Positions 22,438-40,548 of a stretch of 41,011 nucleotides of DNA are shown one piece after another. The stretch is from an archaeon (GTDB lineage Archaea > B1Sed10-29 > WALL01 > JAGHAM01), in NCBI GenBank assembly GCA_021107635.1, contig JAIOSL010000039.1, positions 1 through 41,011 on the forward strand, written 5' to 3'. Every line of letters begins with the position of its first letter. The stretch's first letter is position 1. The notes below the pieces were generated by a model that saw nothing but the letters and a program-made list of their open reading frames with translations, ran no database searches and was not told the origin of the DNA. The translations under genes and the position numbers were made by a program.

Positions 22438-22456
22438 CTCAACAAGAGGTGTTCCG

Positions 22457-23071: not shown

Positions 23072-23073
23072 AA

Positions 23074-23847
23074 ATGAGAAAACCCTACGTTGCAGGACAA
23101 TTTTACCCTGACTCCGTAGAGGAACTTACATCTATGCTAACCTCTTTCTTCAAACAAACCAAAACAAACCTAAAAAGCATAGCAGGAATAGCACCACACG
23201 CAGGATACGTATACTCAGGTCAAACAGCAGCACACACACACGCAGCACTAGACAAAGCAGATACTTACGTAATAATCGAACCAGACCACACAGGTGCAGC
23301 CATGGGAGGAAACATTGCCTACCCAAAAGGAAAATGGGAAACACCACTAGGAACAGTCAAAATTAACGAAACCGCACTAGAAACGCTACAAAACGTAGTC
23401 AGCATAAACGAAAAAGCACACGCTTTTGAACATTCAATAGAAGTACACCTACCATTCCTACAATTTCAAAACGACGACTTTGAAATCGTGCCGATAATAA
23501 TGGGAGACCAAAGCCTAGAATCCGCAAGACAATTAGGAAATGCTCTGGCCTCACTAAACTGTGCAGTAATAGCAAGCACAGACTTTTCACATTATGTTCC
23601 TCAAGCACTAGCACAAGAAAACGACAACTATGCCATCCAAAGCGTGCTCGACCTAGACGAAGCAGACTTTTACCGCCGAATAAGAGAACGCAACGTCAGC
23701 ACCTGCGGCAGAGGACCAATCGCAGCAGCAATAACATTCGCCAAACACAAAACATGCATTGAAGGAAGATTACTAGACTACTCCACCAGCGGTGACATAA
23801 CAGGAGATCCTAGTGTAGTTGGTTACGCATCAATAGCATTCATTTAA
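23074..23847 (+). CDS. Memo-family protein (COG1355)
   Basis: This 257-residue protein has the Memo fold motifs RKPYVAGQFYPDSVEEL at the start, GIAPHAGYVYSGQTAAHTHA, FEHSIEVHLPFLQF, and ASTDFSHYVP. The histidines at H48 and in EHSIEVH and SHY correspond to the metal/nitrogenase-like site of human MEMO1. Family function in Archaea is not settled. Its conserved position next to uS2 and mevalonate kinase in Archaea suggests a link with isoprenoid or membrane metabolism. A T-run (23853-23860) after the stop may end the uS13 operon transcript. Confidence 0.88.
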   Translation: MRKPYVAGQFYPDSVEELTSMLTSFFKQTKTNLKSIAGIAPHAGYVYSGQTAAHTHAALDKADTYVIIEPDHTGAAMGGNIAYPKGKWETPLGTVKINETALETLQNVVSINEKAHAFEHSIEVHLPFLQFQNDDFEIVPIIMGDQSLESARQLGNALASLNCAVIASTDFSHYVPQALAQENDNYAIQSVLDLDEADFYRRIRERNVSTCGRGPIAAAITFAKHKTCIEGRLLDYSTSGDITGDPSVVGYASIAFI

Positions 23848-23852
23848 GAAAA

Positions 23853-23863
23853 CTTTTTTTATA
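23853..23863 (+). promoter_or_regulatory. T-run and TATA box before mevalonate kinase
   Basis: CTTTTTTTATA lies just after the Memo stop. TTTTTATA is centred about 26 bases before ATG 23885, and there is no Shine-Dalgarno between, so the mevalonate kinase mRNA is probably leaderless. The T-run may also terminate the upstream transcript. Confidence 0.55.
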
Positions 23864-23884
23864 CCCCCTGCCTTAAACATATCC

Positions 23885-24784
23885 ATGACCATAGGAACAG
23901 CTCCAGGCAAAATAGTACTATTTGGAGAACACTCAGTAGTATATAATAAACCAGCGATAGCCGCACCAGTAACCAGCGTCAAAGCCCGCGTCCAGCTTGA
24001 ACCAGCGGAAAGATTTAGCATAGACTTTAAAAACGACGTAAACAAACAAAAAGCCTGGAAAGCCATTGAAAACACCGTAGACAATACCTTGGAAGCACTA
24101 CACATCAACGACAAAAACTTCAACATAACCATAGACTCAGAAGTTCCAATTGCATCAGGCATGGGAAGCGGAGCAGCAGTAGGCATAGCAACCATAAGAG
24201 CTATCACTAAACACTTTAACAAAAAACTAACAAAAAATCAGATTAGCAGCATAGACTTTAAAACCGAACAGCTCTTGCACACACACCCAAGTGGTATAGA
24301 CAACACAGTCATATCCCACGAAATACCCATAATATACCAAAATGGAGAACTCCAAAAAATAACCATAGGTAAACCACTCAACATACTCATAGCAAATACA
24401 GGCATACGCTCCAGCACAAAAGAAGCGCTCGAAGCTGTACGCACTGCATGGGAAAACAATCAAGCAGAATACGAAGGATACTTCAGACAGGCAGGCATGA
24501 TTGCACTAGAAGCAAAAAAGGCAATAGAGCTGGGTGAACTAGAAAACATTGGCAAACTAATGCAAGACTTCCAAGAATTCTACAAAAACATTAAAATGAG
24601 TCACCCAGCAAACGAAAAACTCATCCAAGCAGCACTCGACAACGAAGCACTAGGCTCAAAAATAAGTGGAGCAGGAAGAGGTGGATGTGTAATTGCACTA
24701 ATACAAAAAAATACTAAAGAACAAGTATACAACGCCTGGAAAAAACTTGACCCAGAAGTCATAATAGACACAAAGATACGCTAA
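23885..24784 (+). CDS. mvk: Mevalonate kinase
   Basis: This 299-residue GHMP kinase phosphorylates mevalonate to mevalonate 5-phosphate, opening the isoprenoid branch encoded downstream. Motif 1 is APGKIVLFGEHSVVYNKPAI (6-25). Motif 2, the ATP loop, is PIASGMGSGAAVG (88-100). The loop HPSGIDNTV holds the region after the catalytic Asp, and motif 3 is KISGAGRGGCVIAL near the C-terminus. It is the first gene of the isoprenoid locus and has its own TATA box. Confidence 0.94.
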   Translation: MTIGTAPGKIVLFGEHSVVYNKPAIAAPVTSVKARVQLEPAERFSIDFKNDVNKQKAWKAIENTVDNTLEALHINDKNFNITIDSEVPIASGMGSGAAVGIATIRAITKHFNKKLTKNQISSIDFKTEQLLHTHPSGIDNTVISHEIPIIYQNGELQKITIGKPLNILIANTGIRSSTKEALEAVRTAWENNQAEYEGYFRQAGMIALEAKKAIELGELENIGKLMQDFQEFYKNIKMSHPANEKLIQAALDNEALGSKISGAGRGGCVIALIQKNTKEQVYNAWKKLDPEVIIDTKIR

Positions 24785-24798
24785 ATGCCGAAACTACA

Positions 24799-24806
24799 TT
24801 TATTAA
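24799..24806 (+). promoter_or_regulatory. TATA box before ubiX
   Basis: TTTATTAA is centred 31 bases before ATG 24834, predicting a transcript with a leader of only about 5 bases. No Shine-Dalgarno is seen. The genes from UbiX through IPK follow without further gaps and are probably one operon. Confidence 0.5.
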
Positions 24807-24833
24807 CAAACAAAAACCCTATTAACTGATCAA

Positions 24834-25394
24834 ATGAAAGTTTTAGTAGCAATCACAGGCGCCAGTGGATTTCCCCTCGCAGTGAAAACACTGAAAGAAC
24901 TAGGAAAGAAAGAAATAGAACGACACCTAATCGTCAGCAAAAATGCACACAAAGTAAGAGAACAAGAAACAGAATTAACAAGCGAACAAATAGAACAACT
25001 ATGCGAACACTATTATAAACCAGACGCAATCCACACCAGTATCTGTTCAGGAAGCTATCCAATCAACGCAATGATTATTGTACCCTGCTCAATGAACACT
25101 CTCGCGAAGATAGCTGGAGGCATCGAAGACAACGCCATCACCAGAGCAGCAGGAGTAAACATCAAACAAGAACGAAAAGTTATACTAGTACCAAGAGAAA
25201 CCCCCTTACACCTAGCAGCACTAAAAAACATGGTGAAAGCAAAACAACAAGGCTGCTCAATAGTTCCACCAATGCTTGCACACCATACCAAACCAAAAAC
25301 AATCGAAAATAGCGAAAACTTTGTGATAGGAAAAATCCTTGAATTGCTAGGAATAGAACACACACTATACCAAGAATGGAACGTGAAAAAATGA
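24834..25394 (+). CDS. ubiX: Flavin prenyltransferase (UbiX/Pad1 family)
   Basis: This 186-residue flavoprotein makes prenylated FMN from FMN and dimethylallyl phosphate for UbiD decarboxylases. The flavin loop ITGASGFPLAVKTLKEL is at the N-terminus; SICSGSYPINAMIIVPCSMN and NTLAKIAGGIEDNAITRAAG follow; LVPRETPLHLAALKNM is the C-terminal signature. It overlaps the UbiD-family gene by 4 bases (ATGA), so one probably serves the other. The prenyl donor is itself a product of this pathway. Confidence 0.93.
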   Translation: MKVLVAITGASGFPLAVKTLKELGKKEIERHLIVSKNAHKVREQETELTSEQIEQLCEHYYKPDAIHTSICSGSYPINAMIIVPCSMNTLAKIAGGIEDNAITRAAGVNIKQERKVILVPRETPLHLAALKNMVKAKQQGCSIVPPMLAHHTKPKTIENSENFVIGKILELLGIEHTLYQEWNVKK

Positions 25395-26713
25395 ACCTAA
25401 AACAATTCCTAACAGAACTAGAAAAAAAAGAACTACTACTAAAAATAAACCAAAAAGTCAACCCAGAATACGAAATAGCAGCAATTCAAAACCAACTAAA
25501 AGAAAAAACAGTACTCTACGAAAACGTTCAAAACAGCGGATACCAAGTAGTTTCAGGCATATGCTCAACAAGACAACATTTTGCCATAGCACTAGGAATC
25601 AAAAAAAACGAGCTAATAGAAACCATGACCCACGCAATGAACAACCCAACTCAACCAGAACTAACCAAAAATGCTCCCTGTCAAGAAGTCTTCGAAGAAG
25701 CAAACCTAGACACCATTCCAATACTAACACACTTCAAAACAGATGGAGGACCATACATAACCTCCGCAGTAGCAATAATCAAAGATCCTGACTACGGAAG
25801 AAACGCATGCTACCACAGACTCATGAAAATAGACAAGAACTCATTCACAGCAAGAATAATCGAACAAAGAGGAACAGACACAGCAATGAAAAAAGCCTTC
25901 GCACAAAACAAAGAACTAGAAATCGCTTTTTGTATAGGACCACCAATTCAAGTACTACTCGCAGCAGCAATGTCACCAGGAAAAAGCGTGGACGAACTCT
26001 CAATAGCAAACACCATGCAAGAAACACCACTAGTGAAATGCAAAACCATTGACCTAGAAGTACCAGCAGAAACAGAAATAATACTAGAAGGAAAAATAAC
26101 CAAAAAACAAGGCCATGAAGGACCCTTTGTAGACCTAACAAACACCATTGATTTTGTGAGACAACAACCACATATTGAAATAAACTGCATGACCCACAAA
26201 CACGACCCAATATACCATGCCCTGCTACCAGCAGGACCAGAACACAAAAATTTGATGGGAATGCCACGAGAACCAACAATATACACAGAAGTCAAAAAAG
26301 TCTGCAAATGCAGAAACGTGCTTATCACACCAGGAGGCTGCTCATGGTTACATGCAATCATTCAAATAAACAAAAAACAAGAAGAAGACAGCAAAAAAGC
26401 CATTCAAGCAGCATTTAATGGACATACAAGCCTCAAACATTGTGTAATCATAGATGAAGACATTGACATTTACAACCCTGCAGACATAGAATGGGCAATA
26501 GCCACACGCTTCCAAGCAGACAAAGATATGATCATCCTAGAAAACCAACCATCCAGCTCACTCGACCCAAGCGCAGAAAAACCAGAAGGCCAAAAAGCCA
26601 GAACAGCCAAGCTTGGCATCGACGCAACCATGCCAATAAAAAACAGAAACAAATTCCGAAAAAAAGAATATGAACAAATTTACCTTCCAAAATACATGAG
26701 GCACGAAAAATGA
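25391..26713 (+). CDS. UbiD-family decarboxylase, probable anhydromevalonate phosphate decarboxylase
   Basis: From ATG 25391 the protein has 440 residues; GTGAA lies upstream and ATG 25376 is the alternative. UbiD features are HRLMKIDKNSFTARIIEQRG, FCIGPPIQVLLAAAMSPGKS, KKQGHEGPFVDLTNTIDFV and the C-terminal DIEWAIATRFQADKDM. In the archaeal mevalonate route, established for Aeropyrum pernix, a UbiD-family enzyme decarboxylates trans-anhydromevalonate phosphate to isopentenyl phosphate. The substrate is assigned here from neighbours (mevalonate kinase, UbiX, the dehydratase subunits, IPK), not from residues. Confidence 0.85.
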   Translation: MNLKQFLTELEKKELLLKINQKVNPEYEIAAIQNQLKEKTVLYENVQNSGYQVVSGICSTRQHFAIALGIKKNELIETMTHAMNNPTQPELTKNAPCQEVFEEANLDTIPILTHFKTDGGPYITSAVAIIKDPDYGRNACYHRLMKIDKNSFTARIIEQRGTDTAMKKAFAQNKELEIAFCIGPPIQVLLAAAMSPGKSVDELSIANTMQETPLVKCKTIDLEVPAETEIILEGKITKKQGHEGPFVDLTNTIDFVRQQPHIEINCMTHKHDPIYHALLPAGPEHKNLMGMPREPTIYTEVKKVCKCRNVLITPGGCSWLHAIIQINKKQEEDSKKAIQAAFNGHTSLKHCVIIDEDIDIYNPADIEWAIATRFQADKDMIILENQPSSSLDPSAEKPEGQKARTAKLGIDATMPIKNRNKFRKKEYEQIYLPKYMRHEK

Positions 26714-27348
26714 ACGCAGTAATATTTGATTTCGATGGAGTCTTAACCACCCAAACACTAGACATAGCAGTTAAAGAACTTGGAAAAATCCTGGGAAAAC
26801 CAATAGACAAAGAACGAATTGCACTGCTAGAAGGCACTCCAATAGAAGGCATAATCTCAGAATACATTGGCAAACCAATTGATGACCCGGAAGTAATCGA
26901 AATTGACAGAAAAAAACTTGAAATGTTCAGAAAAGACCGCAAAACCATCAAACTTCAAGAAAAACCAATAGAACTCGTAAAAAAACTTAACAAAAAAGGA
27001 ATCAAACTAGCAATAGCAAGCGGCTCCCGCAAAGAAAACCTGAATGAAATACTAGGAAAAACCAAAAACATGTTCAAAATAATCCTAACATCAGAAGACT
27101 TCAACAAAAACAAACCAGACCCAGAACCGTACCTGACTGCCGCAAAAAAGCTAGGAGTAACACCCAGTGAATGCATTGTCATAGAAAATGCACCCAGAGG
27201 TATCGAATCCGCAAAAGCAGCAGGCATGACATGCATAGCAATAACAACAACACTTAAAGCCACTCACCTCAAAAAAGCAGACATCATAGTAAACGATTAC
27301 GACCAACTAGAAAAAACAATATTTGAACTAATAGAGGCGAAAAAATGA
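26710..27348 (+). CDS. HAD hydrolase, beta-phosphoglucomutase-like (copy 1)
   Basis: This 212-residue HAD protein has motif I DFDGVLTT (nucleophile Asp7, acid Asp9), motif II IASGS, motif III Lys in NKPDPEPY, and motif IV IENAPRGIESAKAAGM. Motif IV has ENAP where many relatives have EDSP. A helical cap (about 15-90) follows motif I. It overlaps both neighbours by 4 bases, so it belongs to the isoprenoid operon. The substrate is unknown. A phosphatase acting on an isoprenoid phosphate intermediate is an inference from location only. Confidence 0.8.
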   Translation: MNAVIFDFDGVLTTQTLDIAVKELGKILGKPIDKERIALLEGTPIEGIISEYIGKPIDDPEVIEIDRKKLEMFRKDRKTIKLQEKPIELVKKLNKKGIKLAIASGSRKENLNEILGKTKNMFKIILTSEDFNKNKPDPEPYLTAAKKLGVTPSECIVIENAPRGIESAKAAGMTCIAITTTLKATHLKKADIIVNDYDQLEKTIFELIEAKK

Positions 27349-27986
27349 TAAAAGCAGTAATATTCGACTTTGATGGAGTCATAGCACCAACCATGGAAAA
27401 ACACGCCAAATCATACCAAGAAGTACTCTCAAAGATAGGAGTATGGATAAACCCAAAAGCAGTATACCTCGCAGAAGGCGCACTCCCAGAAGTAATGCTT
27501 TCAAGACTGCTCCAAAAACCAGTAGACCTTGAGATAAAACAATTAGCACGCAAAAAAAGTGAACTGTTCCGAAAACACAGAAAATACATAATACCCTACA
27601 AAGAAGCACTAACACTCGCAAAAAAACTCAAGAAAAAAGGCTATAAAATAGCTATTGCATCTGGAGGCCAAAGAAGAAATGGAGAAATAATTCTAGGAGA
27701 CCAAATCAAAATATTTGAGACATACTTAGATGGAACAGATGTTAAACAACACAAACCAGACCCAGAAGTCTACCTAAAAGCAGCAAAAACTCTTAAAGTA
27801 AAACCAAAACAATGCATAGTAATAGAAAATGCGCCCCATGGCATCACAGCAGCAAAAGCAGCAGGCATGACATGCATAGCAATAACAACAACACTCAACA
27901 AAGAAGACCTGGAAGAAGCAGACTTTATAGTCAACACATTCAAAGAAATCGAAAACAGAATTGAAATCATAAGCAAACTAAAGTGA
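27345..27986 (+). CDS. HAD hydrolase, beta-phosphoglucomutase-like (copy 2)
   Basis: This 213-residue tandem paralogue of the preceding gene has motif I DFDGVIAP, motif II IASGG, motif III HKPDPEVY and motif IV IENAPHGITAAKAAGM. The C-terminal core AAGMTCIAITTTL is identical in both copies, while the caps differ (for example the KHAKSYQEVL region here). That suggests duplication followed by change of substrate. ATGA overlap with copy 1; it is followed by the dehydratase large subunit. Function unknown. Confidence 0.8.
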   Translation: MIKAVIFDFDGVIAPTMEKHAKSYQEVLSKIGVWINPKAVYLAEGALPEVMLSRLLQKPVDLEIKQLARKKSELFRKHRKYIIPYKEALTLAKKLKKKGYKIAIASGGQRRNGEIILGDQIKIFETYLDGTDVKQHKPDPEVYLKAAKTLKVKPKQCIVIENAPHGITAAKAAGMTCIAITTTLNKEDLEEADFIVNTFKEIENRIEIISKLK

Positions 27987-27990
27987 ACCA

Positions 27991-29193
27991 ATGCAACTAA
28001 CACACGAAGAACAGAATGTTCTTAACGGTGAAGAAGGACCAGGCAAACAAAAAGCCATGGAAATACTAGTTGCACTAGGAAAAATCTACAACGCGACTAG
28101 ACTGTTCCCAATCAAAAGCGTGCAAGTAGCAGGCGTATCCTATAATAACCTAGGCGACGCAGGACTAGAATTCTTACAACAATGGGCAAACCAAAACGCA
28201 AAAGCAAGCGTGCCCGCAATGCTCAATCCTGCAGGCATGGACCTAAAAAACTGGCAAAACCAAGGAATCACCAAACAATTCGCTGAAAAACAACAAGACG
28301 TGATTCACGCTTACACTCAAATGGGAATTAAACCAGATTGCACCTGCACACCCTACCTAATCGGCATGCAACCAGAGTACGGCCAGCACGTCGCCTGGAG
28401 CGAATCCAGCGCAGTAACCTACATCAACTCCATTATTGGCGCGCGCACCAACAGAGAAGGAGGGCCATCCGCACTCGCATCAGCAATCATAGGCAAAACC
28501 CCATATTATGGCCTGCACCTACAAGAAAACCGTCAACCAGACATGCTGGTAAAAATCAAAACAGACCTAAAAAACTCCGTGGAATTCAGCGCGCTAGGAT
28601 ACCACCTTGGGAAAAACTATCCTGAAAAAATACCGTATATTACAGGAATAAAACATGCAACTCAAAGCAAACTGAAAGCACTTAGTGCAAGCATAGTTAC
28701 ATACGGAGGACCACCATTATTCCATATTGAAAACATTACAGCAGAAGCCAAGAAAAAAACAGTAAAAAAACCAGAAAAACAAAACATGATCGATGAAAAA
28801 GACATAAAAAAAGCCATTCAAGAAATAAACGATTCAGGTCCCATCGACCTAATATTCCTAGGCTGTCCCCACTGCTCACTAGAAGAACTAGAAAAGATAG
28901 CACTCCTACTCAAAAACAAAAAAGTACACAAAGAAACCTGGATAGCCACAGCCAGAAAAACCATGGAACGCGCAAAACACAAAGGTATCATTAAACCAAT
29001 AGAAACATCCGGCGCGAAAGTTGTTTGTGACACATGCGTAGCAGTAACACCACTCAAAGGACGATTTCATGGACTAGCAACAAATTCAGCCAAAGCATGT
29101 TATTACTCAAGAGGAACTAATGCACTACACTGCATGATCGGCTCTACAGAAAAATGCATTAAGATAGCAACAGAGGAAAACAATGAATGCTAG
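27991..29193 (+). CDS. Phosphomevalonate dehydratase large subunit (aconitase X type)
   Basis: This 400-residue AcnX-family protein dehydrates mevalonate 5-phosphate to trans-anhydromevalonate phosphate with an iron-sulfur cluster. Key segments are [40 protein letters not shown] (Cys117/119), [31 protein letters not shown] (Cys292/295) and [11 protein letters not shown] (Cys346/349). The small subunit overlaps its end by 11 bases. The assignment as the mevalonate enzyme, not another AcnX, rests on the surrounding pathway genes. Confidence 0.9.
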
Positions 29194-29563
29194 AGTAATA
29201 AAACACGGAACTGCAAAAGGCAAAGCTCTAGTATCAACACAATCAATCTCATTCTTTGGAGGAGTAGACCCAAACACAGGCAAAATAATCGAAAAAGGCC
29301 ACTCACTTGAAGGCAAAAGTATTGCAGGCAAAATACTAGTATTTCCCTGTGGAAAAGGAAGTACAGTAGGATCATATATCATCTATAGACTCAAAAAAAA
29401 CGGAAAAGCACCACTAGCAATAGTAAACAAAGAAAGCGAACCAATAGTAGCAGTAGGCGCGATAATAGCTGAAATACCAATGGTTGACCAAGTAAACATC
29501 AATAAAATTAAAAATAATGCAGATGTAATCATAAACGGAGAAGTGATAGAATGGAAGAACTAA
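29183..29563 (+). CDS. Phosphomevalonate dehydratase small subunit (AcnX swivel domain, DUF126)
   Basis: This 126-residue swivelling domain is the separate small subunit typical of archaeal AcnX. Motifs: [40 protein letters not shown] and the [20 protein letters not shown] loop. AGAGG precedes ATG 29183, inside the end of the large subunit gene, which favours equal production. It overlaps IPK by 13 bases. Confidence 0.92.
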
Positions 29564-30369
29564 TCCTCATGAAACTCGGTGGATCGGTAATCACTGAGAA
29601 AAACAAGCCAGACACTGAAATGCTTGACGTGATAAAAAGAGTAGTAAAAGAAATACACGAAGCCAGACAAGAACGTGACTTCAAGCTGATAGTAGGCCAT
29701 GGAGGAGGTTCATACCCACATGTGCCAGCAAGCCAATTCAAAACCAATGAAGGCGTGATAAATGATAATAGCTATGAAGGCATAGCAAAAGTCCAAGATG
29801 CAGCATCCAGACTCAACAGGATAATAGTACGTGAACTAATCAACGCAGGAGAAAATGCTTTAAGCATACAATTAAGCGCTTGCTGCGTAGCAGAAAACGG
29901 CAGACTAAAAGACATGTACCTGAAACCAATAAAAATGCTGCTCGACTTTAACATGCTGCCAGTGCCACACGGAGATGTCGCACTAGACATCAACCAAGGA
30001 TGCTGCATACTTTCAACAGAAGAAGTATTGAGTTACCTGGCAAGACAAGAATCCTTCTTCAAAGACTACCAACTAAAACGTATTATAGTCTGCGGACGCG
30101 TAGATGGAGTGTTTACAGGAGACCCAGAAAGTCAAGACAGTGAACTAATCAAAGAGATTACACCAAACACACTACCACAAATAGAAGATTATCTCGCTGA
30201 ATCCTCAGGCATTGATGTAACCGGAGGCATGGTACACAAAGTCAAAAGAATGATGGAAATCACAGACAAAAACATTCAAACAGAAATAATCAACGCTTTA
30301 CGACCAAACTATGTCAAACGGGCACTGCTCGGAGAAAAAAACCTGGGAACAGTTATAAAGAACGATTGA
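29551..30369 (+). CDS. Isopentenyl phosphate kinase
   Basis: This 272-residue amino-acid-kinase-fold enzyme converts isopentenyl phosphate to IPP. Motifs: [10 protein letters not shown] at the N-terminus; [13 protein letters not shown], with the substrate-phosphate His region; [14 protein letters not shown]; and [19 protein letters not shown] 29551 is preceded by AGTGAT. It completes the route mevalonate kinase, dehydratase, decarboxylase, IPK. The stop is followed by a 61-base gap with a new TATA box. A related but much longer kinase-like fusion comes next. Confidence 0.93.
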
Positions 30370-30387
30370 TTCCATAAACCAGCCAAG

Positions 30388-30397
30388 TTTATATAAA
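30388..30397 (+). promoter_or_regulatory. TATA box before the fusion gene
   Basis: TTTATATAAA is a strong palindromic TATA box in the 61-base gap between IPK and the fusion gene. It predicts a start near 30419 and a leader of about 12 bases. The fusion gene and the isomerase (4-base overlap) would form their own transcription unit. Confidence 0.6.
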
Positions 30398-30430
30398 CAA
30401 AAAGTGTAAAATTACTGCAAGGCGTGTTGT

Positions 30431-32437
30431 ATGGCAAGATATCTTAAAAAGAGAAGAACACTAAAAAAAGAATGGCTCTACAAAAAACTCAAAAAATGGA
30501 ACAGAGAATACAATACAAAAGAAGCCGAAGTAATCAAAGATATCAAAGCTAACAAAAAACTCCTCGACGCCTTCACTCATGAAGGATTCTTAGAACATGC
30601 ACTCAGAGCAAAATATGGAGATAATTCAGCTATTGCTATAGGTGGATCTAGAAGAAATAAATTTAAAGCAGTTCCTCCAAAAGACGAGAAAAAATTTCCT
30701 GACCTTGACATAGTTGTATTTCGCCCAGAAAATCAAAAAACCAAAACTGATTTTCCTAAATTAGATACACCTCTCCTAAGCTATCTAACGCTTACAAAAC
30801 TAGGTCTAGCAAAAAAAAGAGAGAACTATGCTGGAATAAAAGAAAAAATCAAAGGAAGAAAATTCCTCGACTTATACGTAATCGACAAAAAAATGCCAGA
30901 GATTCCTGAGTATAAATATGATGAACATACAGCAATAGTGAAAAACTTGGCACGAATAGAACTTAAAGCAATCAGAGACACACCATTCGTAAAAACTTGG
31001 GAAAAAGCAGAAAAAGCAAGAGCAATAGTCGAATTACTCTCAAGCGTTCCAAATTCAAACAAAGCCATGAGCATTGAAGAAATGACAAAAAATTGGGGAA
31101 AAACAATAGAATATCATCAATACGATGCATTCGACACAATAATGACAGAAAAGGAGAGAAAGAAACTGCCCAAAATGCAAGCAAAAGCAAGAAAAGGAAT
31201 AAACAAAAAAGACCTGGAATGCATTATACAACACTTAACAGAAACCGGCGCACTAAAAGAAAAAAATGGAAAGTACTCAATAAGCAAAAAGTATAAAGGA
31301 GATATAGGATTCGACGAACACAAAGTCATGGAAGACTACTGGAATGATATCAAACCGGGCAAACGCATTATAATTAAACTAGGTGGAGGTCTCATCGCAC
31401 CTAAAAAGCGAAAATACCGAGGGCTCGACAAACGAGTATTCAAACATCTCATGAAAGACATCAAAGAACTCCACGAAGACGGATACGAAATAGGAATTAC
31501 AATCGGAGGAGGCAAATATGGACACAGAGCAGTAGAAAAAGAACCTGGAGTAAAAGAATTCAGAGAAGAAAGAAACAAAATGTACGAAATGATAGATGGC
31601 GTAGCAAAAGGACTAGGAAAATCATTCGTAGGAATGAATGAAATGGACAAAAAAGAACAAGCAAAAGAAGCTAAAAAAACGTATGAAAAAATGGTAGAAC
31701 TTGAAATTCAACAAACAAAATTAAACAAGCTCCTCGAAAAAAACAACTACTTCCACGATGCCAACGACAAAATAAATCAAGCAATAGAAGAACTACACAT
31801 AATAACAAAAGTAGAAGCAAAAAGTCACGGACTCAAAATAAAAAGAGTAGTGCACCCAAAAGACGTAGTCTACCACGAACCAAAACCGCCAAAAGAAACA
31901 AAATCAGAACGAGACATCTGGAAACACGCAATAAAATATCTTTCAAGAGAAGGCGATTACAAAATAGGGAAAAACTCCCTCGATGAATACAAAGAAGAAC
32001 TAGAAAAAGGGAAAAATATCCCATCAGCATACGGAATGGTAATAAGAAGAAAAGGTCAAAAAATCGAAAGCCCGTACAAGATAGCATCTGCAGACAACCT
32101 CACAGAAGAAATAGCAAAACACACTAAAGCAGACAAAGTAATATTCGTCACAGACGTAAACGGAGTCTACACCAAAGATCCAAAAGAAAATAAAGACGCC
32201 AAACACATACCAAGAGGCACGCCAACAGAGATAAAAGCAAGAGTAAAAGACACAAAAACCAAAAAAATAGACGTGACTGGATCAATGGGAAACAAACTAG
32301 GCAGCTCAGAAACAATAGCAACCATGGGCATACCCGTACACATAATAAACGGAAAGAAAAAAGTAAGCATAATAAGAGCACTGAGCGGAGAAAACGTAGG
32401 AACAAGAATACTCCCAGAAAAAGGTGAGAAAAAATGA
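30431..32437 (+). CDS. Fusion of nucleotidyltransferase-like and isopentenyl-phosphate-kinase-like domains
   Basis: I know no protein of this architecture (668 residues). Residues about 50-150 look like a Pol-beta-type nucleotidyltransferase: IAIGGSRRNKF (68-78), PDLDIVVF (90-97) and a third acid in RKFLDLYVID (143-152). A helical region with a winged-helix-like segment (257-287) follows. From 312 on it is an amino acid kinase domain closest to IPK: IIIKLGGGLIA (313-323), GGGKYGHRAV (359-368), FVTDVNGVYTKDPK (572-585), KIDVTGSMGNKLG (612-624). A charged insertion of about 120 residues (405-525) splits it. The isomerase gene overlaps its end. All hallmark residues are kept, so both domains could be active. 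Substrates are unknown. Confidence 0.7.
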   Translation: MARYLKKRRTLKKEWLYKKLKKWNREYNTKEAEVIKDIKANKKLLDAFTHEGFLEHALRAKYGDNSAIAIGGSRRNKFKAVPPKDEKKFPDLDIVVFRPENQKTKTDFPKLDTPLLSYLTLTKLGLAKKRENYAGIKEKIKGRKFLDLYVIDKKMPEIPEYKYDEHTAIVKNLARIELKAIRDTPFVKTWEKAEKARAIVELLSSVPNSNKAMSIEEMTKNWGKTIEYHQYDAFDTIMTEKERKKLPKMQAKARKGINKKDLECIIQHLTETGALKEKNGKYSISKKYKGDIGFDEHKVMEDYWNDIKPGKRIIIKLGGGLIAPKKRKYRGLDKRVFKHLMKDIKELHEDGYEIGITIGGGKYGHRAVEKEPGVKEFREERNKMYEMIDGVAKGLGKSFVGMNEMDKKEQAKEAKKTYEKMVELEIQQTKLNKLLEKNNYFHDANDKINQAIEELHIITKVEAKSHGLKIKRVVHPKDVVYHEPKPPKETKSERDIWKHAIKYLSREGDYKIGKNSLDEYKEELEKGKNIPSAYGMVIRRKGQKIESPYKIASADNLTEEIAKHTKADKVIFVTDVNGVYTKDPKENKDAKHIPRGTPTEIKARVKDTKTKKIDVTGSMGNKLGSSETIATMGIPVHIINGKKKVSIIRALSGENVGTRILPEKGEKK

Positions 32438-33471
32438 ACCAAACAAAAAAAAGAAAGCTTGAGCACCTCGACATCTGCGCCAACCAAAACGTAGAAGAAG
32501 GAACCACCTGGCTAGAACACACTAAACTTGTTCCAGACGCCCTAACCAAACTAAACCCAACACAAATTGACACTAGCACAACACTCCTCGGCAAAAAACT
32601 ACGCGCCCCACTAGTCATTTCTGCTATCACAGGCGGAGTAGAAGAAGCAGGAAAAATCAACAGAGACCTCGCAGGAATCGCAGAACAATTAGGCATAGGC
32701 TTTGGAGTAGGAAGCCAAAGAGCAATGATAGAACACTCTGAAACATGGGAAACATTTTATGTTAGAGAACAAGCACCAACCACACTCGTGCTAGGCAATG
32801 TAGGCGCAGTCAACAATTACAGCGCTGAACAAATACTCAACGCAATGCAAAAAATCAAAGCAGACGCAATGTGTATGCACTTGAACGTCGCACAAGAACT
32901 TGCTCAACCAGAAGGTGACACTTCTTTTGAACACTGCCTAGAAAACATTAAAGCCGCATCAAAGAAACTGCCGGTTGTCGCTAAAGAAACAGGCTGTGGA
33001 ATAAACAAACAAAACGCGCTCGCACTAAAAGATGCTGGCGTCAAAGCTATCGACGTTGGAGGAAGAGGCGGAACAAGCTGGATAAAAGTAGAAGCCCTGC
33101 GCAAAGGAGCAGGATACGCTCCAATAGAATGGGGTATTCCAACAGCAGCATCAATTCTTGAAACTCAAGTAGGAGTGCAACTAATAGCAACAGGCGGAAT
33201 TAGAAGTGGAATACAAACAGCAAAAGCCATAGCCCTTGGAGCAGATTCTGCTGGACTAGCCCTGCCAGTCTTACGCTGGTACTACAAAAATGGAAAAGAA
33301 GGAGTCAAACAAGGCCTAGAACAAATGATACTTGAACTGAAAACCACAATGGCATTAACTGGATCAAAAGACATCAAAGCCCTAAAAAACTCTAACATTG
33401 TAGTGAACGGACCATTATTTGAATGGTGCCAATCAAGAAATATCGACGTCACAAGACTTGGCAACCGCTAA
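32434..33471 (+). CDS. fni: Isopentenyl-diphosphate delta-isomerase, type II (FMN-dependent)
   Basis: This 345-residue TIM-barrel flavoenzyme interconverts IPP and DMAPP. The family start is RKLEHLDICANQNVEEGTTW. The FMN and substrate regions include PLVISAITGGVEEAGKINRD, GFGVGSQRAM, MHLNVAQELAQPEGD, KETGCGINKQNA and DVGGRGGTSWIKVE. The C-terminal GGIRSGIQTAKAIALGAD binds the FMN phosphate. It is coupled by a 4-base overlap to the fusion gene. The gene converges with the minus-strand beta-helix gene, and their stop codons share bases. Confidence 0.94.
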   Translation: MNQTKKRKLEHLDICANQNVEEGTTWLEHTKLVPDALTKLNPTQIDTSTTLLGKKLRAPLVISAITGGVEEAGKINRDLAGIAEQLGIGFGVGSQRAMIEHSETWETFYVREQAPTTLVLGNVGAVNNYSAEQILNAMQKIKADAMCMHLNVAQELAQPEGDTSFEHCLENIKAASKKLPVVAKETGCGINKQNALALKDAGVKAIDVGGRGGTSWIKVEALRKGAGYAPIEWGIPTAASILETQVGVQLIATGGIRSGIQTAKAIALGADSAGLALPVLRWYYKNGKEGVKQGLEQMILELKTTMALTGSKDIKALKNSNIVVNGPLFEWCQSRNIDVTRLGNR

Positions 33472-34448
33472 CTGCCACAAAGAACAGTGTTACTTCCTTC
33501 ATCATGAACATCCTGATTAGCATGCGCGCAGATAAAAGTGTTGTTTGCAGTGCTATCAACACTCCAGACATAGTTTGGATTTTCTACTATGTACCAATCC
33601 CAAACAAGACAATGATCAAAATGATTTTCATCGTTGCTTATTGATTTCACGCCATCAAAGCTGAACTCAGCTGATTGTCCTTTTACATGCTCAAACACGT
33701 TACGGTTGAAGCCTTTTCCAGAAGATGGACTCACATCAAACCAAATCATAGTCTCAAACTGATCAATCCAAACATTCTTGAAATAATTCTCATCTCCAAA
33801 GCCAGTTGGATGATCGCACTCTAAATGGATGCCAGTCTCAGGACCATACATTTGAATGTTATCGAAAATATTCCAAGTTATCTCAGACCCTTCTTTTACC
33901 TCTAAATGGATACCATCGTGTTCTCTTACACTCCAGCCAACACCAGAAGTCCAAGAACTAGGATTAGTCATAACAATGTTTCTGAAAGTATTGTAACGTA
34001 CGCCTTCAGACGAACCAGGAAGATCATACAAACGAATAACTGACGATTCATGACCACTTACAGTTAACTCAATATGCACATTCCTTACTTCTGCATGCTC
34101 ACAATCAGAAACCTCAACAAAAGATAAATCTCCATCAAGAATCACTTCATGATACTCAAAATCCAATGCGATATTATCCTTTAACTGAATTGGGGCTGTC
34201 AAAGTTAGGTCATTTCCAATCCAAACAGTGCCACCCCCAACATCCTCAAGATCAGCTATTGCAATAGACAAGTTTGATTCTGCTACCTCCCAATAATTAC
34301 CTTTGGAATTTCTAATGAACGTTTCCTTATTGTCAGTGACAACAGTTATTTCTCTTGTAATAGACCCAATCAAATAAACCGTAAACAAAAATAAAAGCAA
34401 AGCTAGAACAACCTTTCCTTTATGCAATTCAATTAATTTCAAGTCCAT
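33468..34448 (-). CDS. Membrane-anchored beta-helix-like surface protein (third of tandem set)
   Basis: This 326-residue protein has an N-terminal anchor (about 12-30) ending in the set-specific VYLIGSITRE. A Ser/Thr-rich opening (DNKETFIRNSKGNYWEVAES) follows, then a pectate-lyase/tailspike-type beginning (GGGTVWIGNDLTLTAPIQLK). Recurrent short beta-strand turns (YNTFRNIVMTNPSSW, WNIFDNIQMYG, NYFKNVWIDQFETMIWFDV, NRNVFEHVKGQSA) indicate a right-handed parallel beta-helix. The start overlaps the preceding paralogue by 10 bases, with GTGAT as ribosome-binding site. Probably cell-surface; carbohydrate binding or cleavage is an inference from fold. Confidence 0.7.
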   Translation of the reverse strand: MDLKLIELHKGKVVLALLLFLFTVYLIGSITREITVVTDNKETFIRNSKGNYWEVAESNLSIAIADLEDVGGGTVWIGNDLTLTAPIQLKDNIALDFEYHEVILDGDLSFVEVSDCEHAEVRNVHIELTVSGHESSVIRLYDLPGSSEGVRYNTFRNIVMTNPSSWTSGVGWSVREHDGIHLEVKEGSEITWNIFDNIQMYGPETGIHLECDHPTGFGDENYFKNVWIDQFETMIWFDVSPSSGKGFNRNVFEHVKGQSAEFSFDGVKSISNDENHFDHCLVWDWYIVENPNYVWSVDSTANNTFICAHANQDVHDEGSNTVLCGS

Positions 34449-35434
34449 GGATTATCACAATATCGAGTATGTCTACCTTGATCATCAATATCAGAGATAT
34501 AATGCGCGCAGATGTAAGTTCGGCTAGAATCATTTCTGAGACTCCAATCGTTTACTGGGTTTGTTGGAGCCCACCAATCCCAAACAAGAACATGATCAAA
34601 ATGATTCCCATTATGACTAACATCTCTGACTCCATGCACGCTATAAGTTGCTGATTGGCCTTTCACATTCTGGAAGACATTCTGGTTAAAAGCTCCTGCC
34701 CAGCTCGGATCACAGATTGCAACATCAAACCAAATCATAGTCTCAAACTGATCAATCCAAATGTTTTCGAACTGATTCCCGTTACCCCAACCGGAACAAA
34801 CCGGTTGTTCAAGGTATATTCCTGTCTTGACACCATGCATTTGAATATCTTTAAAAGTGTTATAAAGAAAGTTAGTTCCTCCATTGTTTTCCAAGTGGAT
34901 GCCAACATGGTCATGCTTGCTGTAGCCGACTCCTTCAATCCAAGAACTAGGATTATTTATGTAAATATTCTCGAACGTGTTATATCGTACTCTGTCTGGC
35001 CACCCTGCACCTGGAGCAAGATACAAGTGAATTATTGATGCAGTATGACCATCAGTTATTTTGACTCGGGCATTCTTGACAGTAGCATGGCTGCAAGTTT
35101 GAGCTCTCACAAAACTTATGTCCCCATCTAAGTATACTTTATGATACTGAAAATCAACCATAATATTGTTTTTTAGCAGTATAGGCGAAGAGATTGTTGT
35201 TTCACCTCCAACCCAAACAGTTCCCCTATCTTCCCCTAAATCGTCAATGGCGACCTGTATGTTATCTCCATCAAGCTCCCAATAGTTTCCTTTACTGTTT
35301 CTAATTAGAGTGTCTTTGTTATCTGTTGAAGCGGAGATAACTCTGGTAACAGAACCAATCAAGTAAACAGACAACAATGTTACTGCTAAAATGACCGTCA
35401 CGGTCAAAACCTTGCTTGTGTTCTTTTTTATCAT
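34439..35434 (-). CDS. Membrane-anchored beta-helix-like surface protein (second of tandem set)
   Basis: From ATG 35434 the protein has 331 residues; an upstream in-frame TTG is rejected because the ATG forms a clean ATGA overlap with the first paralogue. Anchor about 8-28 with VYLIGSVTRV; then DNKDTLIRNSKGNYWEL and GTVWVGGETTISSPILLKNN. The beta-helix-type repeats include YNTFENIYINNPSSW, YNTFKDIQMHG and NQFENIWIDQFETMIWFDV, the last nearly identical to the third copy. Cysteines near positions 100 and 215 could form disulfides. Function as for the set is unknown. Confidence 0.7.
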   Translation of the reverse strand: MIKKNTSKVLTVTVILAVTLLSVYLIGSVTRVISASTDNKDTLIRNSKGNYWELDGDNIQVAIDDLGEDRGTVWVGGETTISSPILLKNNIMVDFQYHKVYLDGDISFVRAQTCSHATVKNARVKITDGHTASIIHLYLAPGAGWPDRVRYNTFENIYINNPSSWIEGVGYSKHDHVGIHLENNGGTNFLYNTFKDIQMHGVKTGIYLEQPVCSGWGNGNQFENIWIDQFETMIWFDVAICDPSWAGAFNQNVFQNVKGQSATYSVHGVRDVSHNGNHFDHVLVWDWWAPTNPVNDWSLRNDSSRTYICAHYISDIDDQGRHTRYCDNPWT

Positions 35435-36378
35435 CTTAATCCCGGAATACAAAATCTTGTTCTGCTACCTGCATCTGAAATGCTATGAACTCTAGTGGGA
35501 CAGATGTAAGCAGTACCTGCACTACCTGAGATGCTCCAGTCATAATTGGGAGAGGAAGCGGCTTCCCAGTTAGAAACACCACACTGATCGAAATGATTGG
35601 ATTGACCATTAATGTTTTTAAAACCATCTTTCGTCCAACTGCTAGCTCTTCCTTTAACCGCTTCAAAAACATTATGATTAAAATCCTTGTTTGCTATCCC
35701 ACAACCCTCAAACCAGACTAGCGTTTCAAAACCATCAACCCAAATGTTTTCAAATTGAAAACCGTTACCCCAGCCATTCGGACCTGGAGATTTTAAGTGC
35801 AAACCGTTCTTGCAGTTTTCTATTTGAATGTTTCTGAACGTGTTTATTGCCATGTTTGAAGTTCGTATATCCACTTTGATTCCAGTATACTCATGACTCA
35901 CAGAACTCGGGTTTTTTATGAGAATGTTCTCAAACACCATGTACCTGACTCTGTCAGCCCATACTGCACCAGGTGGATTGTATAAGAGGATTACAGGACT
36001 AGTATAGTCTTCAGGAACCTCCACTTTAACATTCTTTATTGCACCAAATCGACAAGCAGACACCTCCAAGAAAGGAACATCAGCATCTAACATGACTAAA
36101 TTGTTCTGGAAATCAACCATCACATAACTTTTAGGTTCTATTGAAGAAGAAACAGTTAAATTTCCGCCAACCCAAACCGTTCCTCCTGGCTCATCATTTA
36201 AATCATCTATAGCTGCTTGAAGATTTTCTCCTGACAGCTCCCAATATTTACCATTACTATTCCGTATGAATGACTCTTTAGTGTCATGAGAATCAGAAAA
36301 AGAACGAGTAACGGAACCGACTAAATAAATTCCCAAAACCAAAAAGGAAACAACAAGTAAAATTCTAAACCGCTCCAC
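35431..36378 (-). CDS. Membrane-anchored beta-helix-like surface protein (first of tandem set)
   Basis: It starts at GTG 36378 behind AGGTGTC and has 315 residues. The anchor is about 5-24 with IYLVGSVTRSF, followed by KESFIRNSNGKYWELSGENL, QAAIDDLNDEPGGTVWVGGN and beta-helix repeats (VFENILIKNPSS, NTFRNIQIENCK, FQFENIWVDGFETLVWFEG, HNVFEAVKGRAS). It is the most diverged of the three. It heads the minus-strand operon, with a TATA box at 36420-36411. Codon use in the three genes is less A/C-biased than in the plus-strand genes, which hints at different origin or expression. Confidence 0.68.
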   Translation of the reverse strand: MERFRILLVVSFLVLGIYLVGSVTRSFSDSHDTKESFIRNSNGKYWELSGENLQAAIDDLNDEPGGTVWVGGNLTVSSSIEPKSYVMVDFQNNLVMLDADVPFLEVSACRFGAIKNVKVEVPEDYTSPVILLYNPPGAVWADRVRYMVFENILIKNPSSVSHEYTGIKVDIRTSNMAINTFRNIQIENCKNGLHLKSPGPNGWGNGFQFENIWVDGFETLVWFEGCGIANKDFNHNVFEAVKGRASSWTKDGFKNINGQSNHFDQCGVSNWEAASSPNYDWSISGSAGTAYICPTRVHSISDAGSRTRFCIPGLR

Positions 36379-36410
36379 TTAAAGACACCTAAAATGAATT
36401 ACTCTAAAAG

Positions 36411-36420
36411 ATTATAAAAG
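36411..36420 (-). promoter_or_regulatory. TATA box of the beta-helix operon
   Basis: On the minus strand CTTTTATAAT lies about 37 bases before the GTG start at 36378, predicting a leader of about 11 bases. It is the minus-strand part of a 165-base divergent promoter region shared with the DUF4139 gene. Confidence 0.5.
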
Positions 36421-36442
36421 AATATCCATCTAACAAACCCTC

Positions 36443-36543
36443 TTGTTATAAATACACGTCTTTTGTAAGCATTTTTAGGGAAAAACCTAATCATTTACAC
36501 AGAATTTAATATTCTGGACGATAAAGGTATCCAGGTGATTTTA
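36443..36543 (+). promoter_or_regulatory. Divergent control region before the DUF4139 gene
   Basis: TTATAAAT (36446-36453) is a possible TATA box, giving a start near 36476. An inverted repeat TTAGG-N6-CCTAA lies at 36475-36490, the same arm sequence and total length as the repeat at 13353-13368. A second inverted repeat AGAAT-TTAAT-ATTCT (36501-36515) includes a TATA-like TTTAATAT. AGGTGAT (36533-36539) is the ribosome-binding site of ATG 36544. Which TATA is used cannot be told from sequence. Confidence 0.5.
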
Positions 36544-38079
36544 ATGAATAACAAAATACTCGCAGCAATATTTTTAGTTGTTGTTATGATAGCAGGAATA
36601 GCAATTTTTGTTCCACAACAAAACAACACAACCGAACCAACAAAAACAATAACCCAACAATACCCACTTGAGATAGTGGGAGAAGTGACCTCTGAACGAG
36701 CACCAATAACAGAACACCAAGAATTTATAGTCTCTTCCCCAGACGAAATGATTGAATTGGCAGGAGGAACGGAAGTTTCTCCAAGCACAGGCGTAGAAAT
36801 AACCATTTACAACCAGAATTTTGGCTTAGTCAAAGACAAAAGAGAAATTCCACTCCAGAGTGGGACCAACCTCGTCAAATTTACTGACGTAGCATCAAGA
36901 ATAGATGCCACATCAGTACACTTCAAATCGTTGACAGGCAACGCAAGAGTAATAGAACAAAACTATGAATATGACTTAGTAAGCACTGCAAAACTAATAG
37001 AAAAGTATATAGACAAAGAAGTAGCAGTCCACACAGGCGAAGATACATTCATAGGCACTCTACTAAGCTCAACTGGAGGCATAGTCCTACAAACCACGGG
37101 AGGAGTTGTAAGCATAAGTGAATACGACAACATTGAATTCCCAGAACTACCTCAAGGTTTGATAACCAAACCCACACTAGTCTGGCAAGTATTCACAGAT
37201 TTAGCAACAACACACAACGTAGAAGTATCCTATCTAACAGACGGCATAACCTGGAACTCCGACTACGTAGCAGTGATAAATAACGATGATACTGCCCTAG
37301 ACCTAGAAGGATGGGTAACAATAGACAATAAAGCAGGAACCAACTTCGCAGATGCACAACTCAAACTAGTAGCAGGAGACGTTAACAGAGTCACCCCACA
37401 ACCAGAACACCTCATGTATGACATAGCATACGGAGCAGGAGGAGATGCTGCGCCAAAAGGATTCAGTGAAGAATCCTTCTATGAATACCATCTCTACACA
37501 CTAGGAAGACCAACAACAGTCAAAGAAAACCAAATGAAACAAATAGAACTGCTTAGTGCAGAAGAAGTTCCAGTAACAAAAGAATACGTTTTCGAACCTA
37601 GCGGCTCATGGTACTCCAGCTCAAGCAGTGGAAAAGTCAAAACCATGCTGAATTTAAAGAATAGCGAAGAAAACGGAGTAGGCATGCCACTCCCGAAAGG
37701 TAGAGTAAGAGTATACAAAGCAGACTCAACAGGACAACTACAATTCGTAGGAGAAGACCAAATAGACCACACCCCAAAAGACGAAGAAATTAGAATCTTC
37801 ACAGGTAACGCATTTGATATCACCGGAGAAGCAACAACAACAAACCAAGAAAGCCTAGGACGCTGTTCCTCCAGAAAAACCAGACAAATCAAACTAAGAA
37901 ACCACAAAGAAGAAAACATAAAAGTCACCGTCATAGAATACATCGGCACTTCCTGGGAAATCACAGACAAAACACACGACTACGAAAAAACATCAGCAAC
38001 AAAAATCAACTTCAAAGTAGACGTACCAAAAGACGAAGAAACCACAATAGAATACACACTCTATTACGACTATTGTTAA
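36544..38079 (+). CDS. Secreted or membrane-anchored DUF4139 protein
   Basis: From ATG 36544 (AGGTGAT upstream) the protein has 511 residues. An N-terminal hydrophobic segment (about 5-24) is followed by a Thr/Gln/Glu-rich stalk. The DUF4139-type domain starts with ITIYNQNFGLVKDKREIPL and continues through DATSVHFKSL, WNSDYVAVINNDDTALDLEG and NLKNSEENGVGMPLPKGRVR, ending in strand-rich TIEYTLYYDYC. DUF4139 proteins are predicted surface or envelope proteins of unknown function. It is divergent from the beta-helix operon and may share its regulation. Confidence 0.75.
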   Translation: MNNKILAAIFLVVVMIAGIAIFVPQQNNTTEPTKTITQQYPLEIVGEVTSERAPITEHQEFIVSSPDEMIELAGGTEVSPSTGVEITIYNQNFGLVKDKREIPLQSGTNLVKFTDVASRIDATSVHFKSLTGNARVIEQNYEYDLVSTAKLIEKYIDKEVAVHTGEDTFIGTLLSSTGGIVLQTTGGVVSISEYDNIEFPELPQGLITKPTLVWQVFTDLATTHNVEVSYLTDGITWNSDYVAVINNDDTALDLEGWVTIDNKAGTNFADAQLKLVAGDVNRVTPQPEHLMYDIAYGAGGDAAPKGFSEESFYEYHLYTLGRPTTVKENQMKQIELLSAEEVPVTKEYVFEPSGSWYSSSSSGKVKTMLNLKNSEENGVGMPLPKGRVRVYKADSTGQLQFVGEDQIDHTPKDEEIRIFTGNAFDITGEATTTNQESLGRCSSRKTRQIKLRNHKEENIKVTVIEYIGTSWEITDKTHDYEKTSATKINFKVDVPKDEETTIEYTLYYDYC

Positions 38080-38091
38080 GACCCAAAGGGC

Positions 38092-39777
38092 ATGGTGAAA
38101 ACACATATAAACACAAAAAACGCTAAAAACATCATGCCCGATGAACTCATTCTCAAACACGTCCTAAAAAATGCAATCCAATATGGCAAAGCTAACCCAA
38201 AAGCCATACTAGGAAGCATACTAGGAGAACAACCCGAACTTAGACCAAAAGCAAAAGAACTGCTTCCTCAAGTAGAAGAAACCTGTCAGTTAATTGAAAC
38301 ATGGAGCGAAAACCAGAAAGTTAACAAAATCAGAAGAATCTGGCCAGACGCATTCGTCAAAAAAGAAAAAATCCAAAGCAGCACGCTAAAAGAACTGAAA
38401 AACATTAAAGAAACAATAATAGTACGCATAGCACCAAACCCCAATGGACCAGCAACAATGGGAAGCGCTCGAGGCATAATAATCAACGCAGAATACGCAA
38501 AAAGACACAAAGGAACATTCATAATGCGCTTTGATGATACAGACCCAGCCACTAAAGCACCAGTCAAAGACGCATACCAATGGTACCAAGAAGACGCAGA
38601 ATGGCTAGGCTGCAAGCCAGACCAAGTAGTAATAGTCTCAGAACACCTGCCACAATACTACAAATACGCTGAACAACTAATCAAAGCAGGACACTGCTAC
38701 GTCTGCTTTTGCAGCGCCGGAGAATTCAAAGCACTGAAAGACCAAGCAAAACCATGTCCACATCGAGACAGCAAACCGACCAAAAACATGGAAGACTGGG
38801 AAAAAATGCTTGATGGAACATACAAAGAAGGAGAAGCAGTACTACGCGTTAAAACAAACATTCAACATCCAGACCCAGCACTACGCGACTGGGTAGCTTT
38901 TAGAATCCTAGAAGCAAAACACCCACATGTAGGCAAAAAATACAGAGTATGGCCAATGCTAGACTTTGAAGGAGCCATTGAAGACCACCTACAAAACATG
39001 ACCCACATAATCAGAGGAAAAGATTTAACCGACTCCACACACAGACAAAAATTCTTATATGACTACCTAGGCTGGGAATATCCAACCACATCATACTGGG
39101 GAAGAGTTGCAATGCACGGCTTCGGAAAAATCTCCACCAGCAAAATCAGTGAAGGCATAAAAAACGGAGAATACACCGGCTGGGACGACCCACGCCTGCC
39201 AACAATACGCGCGCTCAAACGCAGAGGATTCCAACCAAAAGCAATCCGTGACTTTTGGTTAAGCCTAGGACTAACAGAAAAAGATATTTCAGCATCAATG
39301 AAAAATCTTGAAGCATTCAACAAAAAAATAATAGAAAAAGGAAACAGGTACTATTTCGTGCCAGAACCAATAGAAATAACCGTTAAAAACATCCCTCCAA
39401 CAAGACTCGCACTAAAACGTCACCCAGACAATCCAAAAGCAGGAGTAAAACGATACGAATTTGAAGGAGAACAAAAATTCCTAATTCCAAAAAAAGACGT
39501 GAGTAACTCTTTCAGACTAAAAGATGCATTCAACATCAAAAAACAAGGAGAAAACTATGTTTATGACGGAAAAGAACTAAAACCAAACCCAAAAATACAA
39601 TGGGTCACAGACAGCATAAATGTTAAAATAATGATGCCAGATGCTAACACACTAGAAGGAAAAGCTGAAAAATATCTAGAAGAAACCAAAATCGACGAAA
39701 TAATTCAATTTGAACGTTTTGGATTCGTAAGAATAGACTCAAAACAGCCATTAACAGCATATTACACGCAAGCTTAA
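38092..39777 (+). CDS. gltX: Glutamyl-tRNA synthetase (archaeal type)
   Basis: This 561-residue class I synthetase charges tRNA-Glu (and often tRNA-Gln in Archaea, for later amidation). The first signature region is RIAPNPNGPATMGSARG; the HIGH-equivalent reads TMGS, which I believe is within the range of archaeal GluRS. The second signature is FGKISTSKIS (KMSKS equivalent), followed by the archaeal GWDDPRLPTIRALKRRGFQP. A zinc-like cysteine set YVCFCSAGEF...PCPHR is present. The C-terminal anticodon domain is a beta-barrel as in GlnRS. ATG 38092 is 12 bases after the DUF4139 stop. Confidence 0.93.
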   Translation: MVKTHINTKNAKNIMPDELILKHVLKNAIQYGKANPKAILGSILGEQPELRPKAKELLPQVEETCQLIETWSENQKVNKIRRIWPDAFVKKEKIQSSTLKELKNIKETIIVRIAPNPNGPATMGSARGIIINAEYAKRHKGTFIMRFDDTDPATKAPVKDAYQWYQEDAEWLGCKPDQVVIVSEHLPQYYKYAEQLIKAGHCYVCFCSAGEFKALKDQAKPCPHRDSKPTKNMEDWEKMLDGTYKEGEAVLRVKTNIQHPDPALRDWVAFRILEAKHPHVGKKYRVWPMLDFEGAIEDHLQNMTHIIRGKDLTDSTHRQKFLYDYLGWEYPTTSYWGRVAMHGFGKISTSKISEGIKNGEYTGWDDPRLPTIRALKRRGFQPKAIRDFWLSLGLTEKDISASMKNLEAFNKKIIEKGNRYYFVPEPIEITVKNIPPTRLALKRHPDNPKAGVKRYEFEGEQKFLIPKKDVSNSFRLKDAFNIKKQGENYVYDGKELKPNPKIQWVTDSINVKIMMPDANTLEGKAEKYLEETKIDEIIQFERFGFVRIDSKQPLTAYYTQA

Positions 39778-39992
39778 CGAGTAGGAGCTTTTCTGACCCC
39801 ATCATAAACCAAAGCCAACCCCACCAAGACCAAAAGGCCATAAACTACAGAGTAAGTGCCACTATTCTGAACAGTATAACCAGTTGTTCCAATATAAGCA
39901 AGCCCAGCCACGCCAAAGACAGTCATGACAACACCAGCCAATAAAACAACTACTACACCAACAGCAATTATAACTTCTTCCCAGACTTTCAT
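39774..39992 (-). CDS. Small two-helix membrane protein
   Basis: This 72-residue hydrophobic protein has helices at about 6-30 and 46-64, separated by a Gly/Thr/Tyr-rich loop (YIGTTGYTVQNSGTYS), and ends KAPTR. No family is recognised. It converges with gltX, overlapping its last 4 bases. A TATA box 26 bases before the ATG and no Shine-Dalgarno suggest a leaderless mRNA, which supports a real gene. Confidence 0.6.
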   Translation of the reverse strand: MKVWEEVIIAVGVVVVLLAGVVMTVFGVAGLAYIGTTGYTVQNSGTYSVVYGLLVLVGLALVYDGVRKAPTR

Positions 39993-40014
39993 GCAAATAT
40001 TATAAACAACCTAA

Positions 40015-40022
40015 TATTTAAA
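40015..40022 (-). promoter_or_regulatory. TATA box of the small membrane protein
   Basis: On the minus strand TTTAAATA is centred 26-27 bases before ATG 39992, predicting transcription from the start codon. A second TATA-like TTTATAAT lies too close to the ATG to serve. Confidence 0.5.
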
Positions 40023-40033
40023 GATATTTGCAA

Positions 40034-40372: not shown

Positions 40373-40392
40373 GTGATAATTATACCAACCAA

Positions 40393-40400
40393 CATTTAAA
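40393..40400 (-). promoter_or_regulatory. TATA box of the small unknown gene
   Basis: On the minus strand TTTAAATG is centred about 25 bases before ATG 40372, which supports this start over the upstream GTG. Confidence 0.45.
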
Positions 40401-40466
40401 GACGTTACGAAATAGCCATTAAAACCAAAAAAAACACCACATAATTCACGCAAAAAATGCACAAAC

Positions 40467-40496: not shown

Positions 40497-40510
40497 AGAA
40501 CTCGTTTTTA

Positions 40511-40545: not shown

Positions 40546-40548
40546 AAA

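Follow-up and report, generated by a model that had tools for sequence, protein, structure and literature searches.

The window (a 41,011-nt stretch of archaeal DNA, from a 60-contig assembly that is 88% complete) contains a mevalonate operon in which one gene encodes a nucleotidyltransferase (NT)-like half, a winged-helix segment and a kinase of the isopentenyl phosphate kinase (IPK) family. This raises the question of whether the fusion takes part in isoprenoid synthesis, as its location would suggest, or whether it represents another system that came to reside in this operon.

The fusion gene and its operon

The relevant features are the following:

23885..29563, + strand: GHMP kinase (probable mevalonate kinase), UbiX-like protein, UbiD, two HAD phosphatases, and aconitase X large and small subunits (Pfam/NCBIfam; GHMP kinase and UbiX read from the sequence)
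29551..30369, + strand: true isopentenyl phosphate kinase (NF040647, 198 bits; cut-off 120)
30388..30397, + strand: TTTATATAAA, a probable archaeal TATA box serving the fusion gene, whose ATG lies 33 nt further on
30431..32437, + strand: NT-like / winged helix / IPK-family kinase fusion, 668 aa (frame, Pfam, motif positions)
30548..30901, + strand: probable nucleotidyltransferase core, residues about 40-157, with GGS 71-73, D91, D93 and D147 (motif specificity and conservation)
31000..31310, + strand: helical linker and predicted winged-helix segment, residues about 190-293 (AlphaFold, fold matches, weak HTH matches)
31352..32413, + strand: IPK-family amino acid kinase (AAK) domain, residues about 308-661 (PF00696, NF040647, alignment with IPK structure sequences)
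32434..33471, + strand: type 2 isopentenyl-diphosphate isomerase, fni (TIGR02151, 360 bits)

The operon is of the archaeal, phosphomevalonate dehydratase/UbiD type, the aconitase X subunits being the phosphomevalonate dehydratase pair. As a preliminary description of this DNA had stated, the fusion gene lies between the true IPK and the isomerase gene and overlaps the second of these. The overlap spans 4 nt (32434-32437), the gene is a single open reading frame without a break, and all the motifs named in that description were recovered: GGS (71-73), DLD (91-93) and a third aspartate, D147 (FLDL, 145-148), in the N-terminal half, and KLGGG (316-320), GGGKYGH (359-365), DVNGVYTKDP (575) and DVTGSMGNK (614) in the kinase half. 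No RNA feature was detected with Rfam in 22000-41011.

The TATA-box candidate is located in the 61-nt gap 3' of the IPK gene, and TTTATATAAA occurs only once in the 41-kb window, compared with 0.07 occurrences expected by shuffling. Its uniqueness and location suggest a promoter of their own for the fusion and fni, from which the two could be transcribed independently of the genes before them. The lower G+C content of the fusion gene (0.359 vs. 0.36-0.44 in its neighbours) and the lysine content of its product (17.7%) give a hint of horizontal gain; the separate halves found in the relative described below are not lysine-rich.

On the other side of fni, three similar minus-strand proteins (33468-36378), which by eye resemble right-handed beta-helices, separate it from a glutamyl-tRNA synthetase-like gene. 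The one tested had no match in Pfam. In the closest genome (G001, same family as the window), fni and the glutamyl-tRNA synthetase-like gene are 23 nt apart.

A single relative, outside the mevalonate operon

A related system was found in one genome of another genus of the same order (G009), where the two halves are separate genes, NT-like (L035:1659-2702) followed by kinase (2699-3601), in the same order as in the window and with a 4-nt ATGA overlap. A frameshift artefact in this genome was rejected, as this stop/start overlap is the usual arrangement of coupled genes. The pair is followed by a converging dihydroorotase gene (pyrC), with that of IleRS (ileS) further along the contig (names read from the sequence). 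Just upstream, on the opposite strand, there is an 86-aa stretch that matches a single TBP repeat, half a TATA-binding protein (L035:990-1247). The mevalonate operon of this genome is on a different contig and it also includes a true IPK (NF040647, 209 bits). There, a CYTH (CyaB-like) protein (L053:434-961) is found between IPK and fni, the slot occupied by the fusion in the window.

In G001, IPK overlaps fni with nothing in between, and no fusion separates these genes in G010, where they are adjacent, or in G007, where they overlap. An ORF matching IPK is present in G005; fni was not located there and this junction was therefore left out of the count. The position of the fusion within the mevalonate operon is thus not conserved, the module lying at a separate locus in G009 and being absent between IPK and fni in the other three genomes.

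Searches of more than 600 archaeal genomes (sets of 394 and 301, partly shared) retrieved no further relatives. For the NT half, only chance-level matches of 15-17 bits were obtained in the 394 archaeal genomes, G009 aside, and likewise in the 301 genomes, which belong to another archaeal phylum. A search of its own phylum and another phylum (10 genomes) returned G009 or chance matches only, as did those of viral contigs (three scans), phages (with the whole protein) and plasmids (with the G009 NT half). In a single scan of genome contigs, with bacteria thinly covered, only remote AAK matches were found, to residues 550-662 and 554-590. Similarly, no open-access paper joining IPK, nucleotidyltransferase and fusion was found, subscription journals being outside the scope of this search. 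Two examples were found in all, the window fusion and the G009 pair, and the coupling of NT and kinase rests on one pair.

Since the two halves are fused in one genome and overlap in another, there is good evidence that the NT-like half and the kinase work together. Moreover, because the pair lies off the operon in G009 and IPK directly overlaps fni in G001, the window position is, as read from these genomes, a lineage-specific insertion with its own probable TATA box. Together, the separate locus, the intact IPK/fni junction and this putative promoter point to a functional link between the NT-like half and the kinase rather than to isoprenoid synthesis. The preliminary description had suggested that the protein could help to make a nucleotide-activated isoprenoid or could sense the pathway, and had asked whether the fusion always adjoins fni or ipk. 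In the one relative found, the paired genes do not, and the proposed role is not supported by the G009 locus or the G001 junction. As the operon position has been seen once and is not conserved, an isoprenoid role is just one option.

The two halves of the protein

The kinase domain is readily recognised. Pfam AA_kinase (PF00696) matches residues 311-640 (E 2.2e-31, 109.9 bits; gathering cut-off 24.9), and the best chains retrieved from the PDB by phmmer are IPKs, aligned to residues 312-367 and about 521-661. The IPK equivalog model NF040647 gives 106.3 bits for the fusion and 107.2 for its kinase half by itself, both below the cut-off of 120, whereas the G009 kinase scores slightly above it (126.4 bits). 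The IPK hallmarks announced in the preliminary description are indeed present: the window kinase retains the IPK histidine and phosphate-binding motifs (GGGKYGH, DVTGSMGNK), and its relative has GGGNYAH in the place of the first, DxTGxMxxK being found in both. The histidine of GGGxxGH is described as catalytically essential in IPK, and its conservation does not extend to the other members of the AAK family (PMC3857490). The IPK structure 8u0k has about 90 residues between this motif and the next conserved block, the window kinase about 180 (about 366-552). Comparison with IPK structure sequences showed that this expanded central segment lacks the IPK pocket motifs. In a tree of 32 kinases, those of the window and G009 group together next to the IPKs as a separate clade (support 98/97), although its placement as sister to the IPKs is tentative because the tree has only a midpoint root. 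The kinase half is probably active and would add a phosphate to the one already carried by a small phosphorylated substrate.

The fusion could be imagined as a second, regulated isoprenoid-monophosphate kinase acting on isopentenyl, dimethylallyl or longer prenyl phosphates, with an N-terminal half (possibly catalytically dead) and a winged helix that sense or control the mevalonate operon. Its location inside this operon, overlapping fni, the score of the G009 kinase just over the IPK cut-off, and the existence in other archaea of IPK domains fused to pathway proteins (for example, IPK-fni) would agree with such a role. However, a true IPK is already encoded in each of the two genomes (198 and 209 bits), the G009 pair lies near pyrC and ileS outside the mevalonate operon, the window kinase falls below the cut-off, and the central segment, which holds the acceptor site in IPK, is expanded and does not resemble that of IPK. 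We consequently regard this explanation as unlikely.

The N-terminal half is more difficult to place. Residues 1-305 have no match in Pfam, NCBIfam, PADLOC or the PDB, no curated NT family model of Pfam or NCBIfam is retrieved at E up to 10, and PHROGs and PADLOC gave nothing useful for the window protein. Alignments of the NT half against those of CCA, MNT and AbiEii with hhalign revealed no significant similarity. The GG[ST]...DhD...D set is invariant between the window protein and its G009 relative, at 35% overall identity. As a regular expression, this signature matches 6 of the 426 ORFs with 200 aa or more that the fetched loci contain, namely the fusion ORF (twice, once as a partial copy), its relative and three proteins similar to AbiEii or CCA-type NTs; this background takes in loci fetched for NT families and the rate is not genome-wide. 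In composition shuffles, it appears 0-1 times in 20,000.

Two AlphaFold predictions of the NT half from two-row alignments were of low confidence (mean pLDDT 47 and 41), and Foldseek found no significant fold match with these models. The low-confidence model of the relative has strands at each of the three NT motifs, as an NT fold would have. The winged-helix segment was modelled with a pLDDT of about 60-85 over much of 190-290 (best blocks 71-84), winged-helix proteins account for many of the best fold matches (none significant, E about 0.4-1.5), and the G009 relative shows weak ArsR and IclR HTH matches. The predicted winged helix is thus supported, while the NT fold is likely, judging from the motifs, yet unproven because AlphaFold confirmed the winged helix only.

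One could ask whether GGS, DLD and the third aspartate are convergent and the N-terminal half is not a nucleotidyltransferase, but a winged-helix or helical accessory domain of the kinase. The lack of database or fold support for an NT, together with the winged helix being the only confidently modelled part, would fit this explanation, which is nevertheless improbable given the specificity of the motif set, its invariance between relatives this divergent, and the predicted strands that flank each motif.

The preliminary description therefore holds in its reading of the domains, NT-like, winged helix and IPK-like kinase. Its Pol-beta assignment is borne out at the level of the signature, and the structure prediction and Foldseek comparison that it had recommended recovered the winged helix; the NT fold was not recovered. 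Likewise, of its proposal that nucleotide and phosphate transfer are joined, the pairing of the halves is strengthened by the overlapping G009 genes, and the NT fold is the part that was not confirmed.

A putative two-enzyme module and its comparison with known systems

The explanation that we favour, with a probability of about 0.45, is that of a rare two-enzyme module in one chain, carrying out two steps on a phosphorylated substrate, where we infer both activities and the shared substrate. The C-terminal kinase would perform phosphate-to-diphosphate chemistry on a small phosphorylated substrate, as in IPK, and the N-terminal half, as a probable nucleotidyltransferase of the Pol-beta superfamily, would transfer a nucleoside monophosphate either to that substrate or to the product of the kinase; the winged helix would assist in binding substrate or partner. 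Two translationally coupled genes could be the original state of the module or the result of its splitting, and its insertion into the mevalonate operon, together with a promoter of its own, would have taken place in the window organism. The genomic context in the window and in G009 indicates no substrate. A more ambitious and rather doubtful version of this proposal is a new bifunctional class: a kinase of the IPK family and a member of a new NT family would work one after the other on a single phosphorylated substrate, and might yield a nucleotide-linked isoprenoid or another nucleotide-activated diphosphate.

A toxin and antitoxin in one chain would be unusual, which counts against a toxin-antitoxin-like pair, with an NT half that modifies tRNA or protein and a kinase half that neutralises either the NT half or its product. 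This last explanation, recommended by the rare, patchy and overlapping pairing of an NT-like member with a kinase, by the lower G+C of the fusion gene, and by TakA, which also has a winged helix and belongs to a system in which neutralisation of an NT toxin by a kinase is established (PMC7205606), is the least probable, since the small-molecule AAK fold and the IPK histidine set this kinase apart from TakA, an atypical protein kinase, and the window protein has no PADLOC match.

The proposed two-enzyme module matters in that an NT-like half with no match in family libraries stands beside a well-studied isoprenoid kinase family, and its fused and split forms offer a testable case for new two-step chemistry in small-genome archaea. 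It also cautions against reading every second AAK gene of a mevalonate operon as one for isoprenoid synthesis.

Compared with IPK (NF040647; PDB 8u0k, 3ll9, 3k4o), the fusion kinase shares the AAK fold family, KxGG, the GGGxxGH histidine, TDVxGxY and DxTGxMxxK. It differs in its doubled central region (about 180 vs. about 90 residues) without the IPK pocket motifs, in the added N-terminal NT-like and winged-helix half, and in having a true IPK encoded next door. The NT half resembles Pol-beta NTs (archaeal CCA-adding enzyme, MNT, AbiEii) in having hG[GS][ST], DhD and the third aspartate in equal order, whereas 17-20 residues lie between GG[ST] and DhD and profile similarity is undetectable.

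In Mycobacterium tuberculosis, TakA phosphorylates the NT toxin TglT (PMC7205606). TglT-TakA (Rv1045-Rv1044) is similar in pairing an NT with a kinase, in adjacent genes, with a winged helix in one partner. In contrast, the kinase here belongs to a small-molecule family (AAK), and it is the NT side that carries the winged helix.

Other archaeal IPK fusions were also observed. IPK and the type 2 isomerase form one frame of 630-636 aa in three genomes (family f58; L086:1957-3867, L087:1372-3264, L088:1099-2991), and the mevalonate operon of G002 encodes an IPK with a C-terminally fused HAD phosphatase (L037:5147-6754). A radical SAM domain is found at the N-terminus of an IPK adjoining fni (L089:2244-4022), and G006 has a methyltransferase-Nudix-IPK-like fusion of 720 aa (L036:2765-4927), with a separate IPK also present. 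Like the window protein, these fusions join an IPK-family domain to another enzyme; the window protein differs from all of them in carrying an NT-like half.
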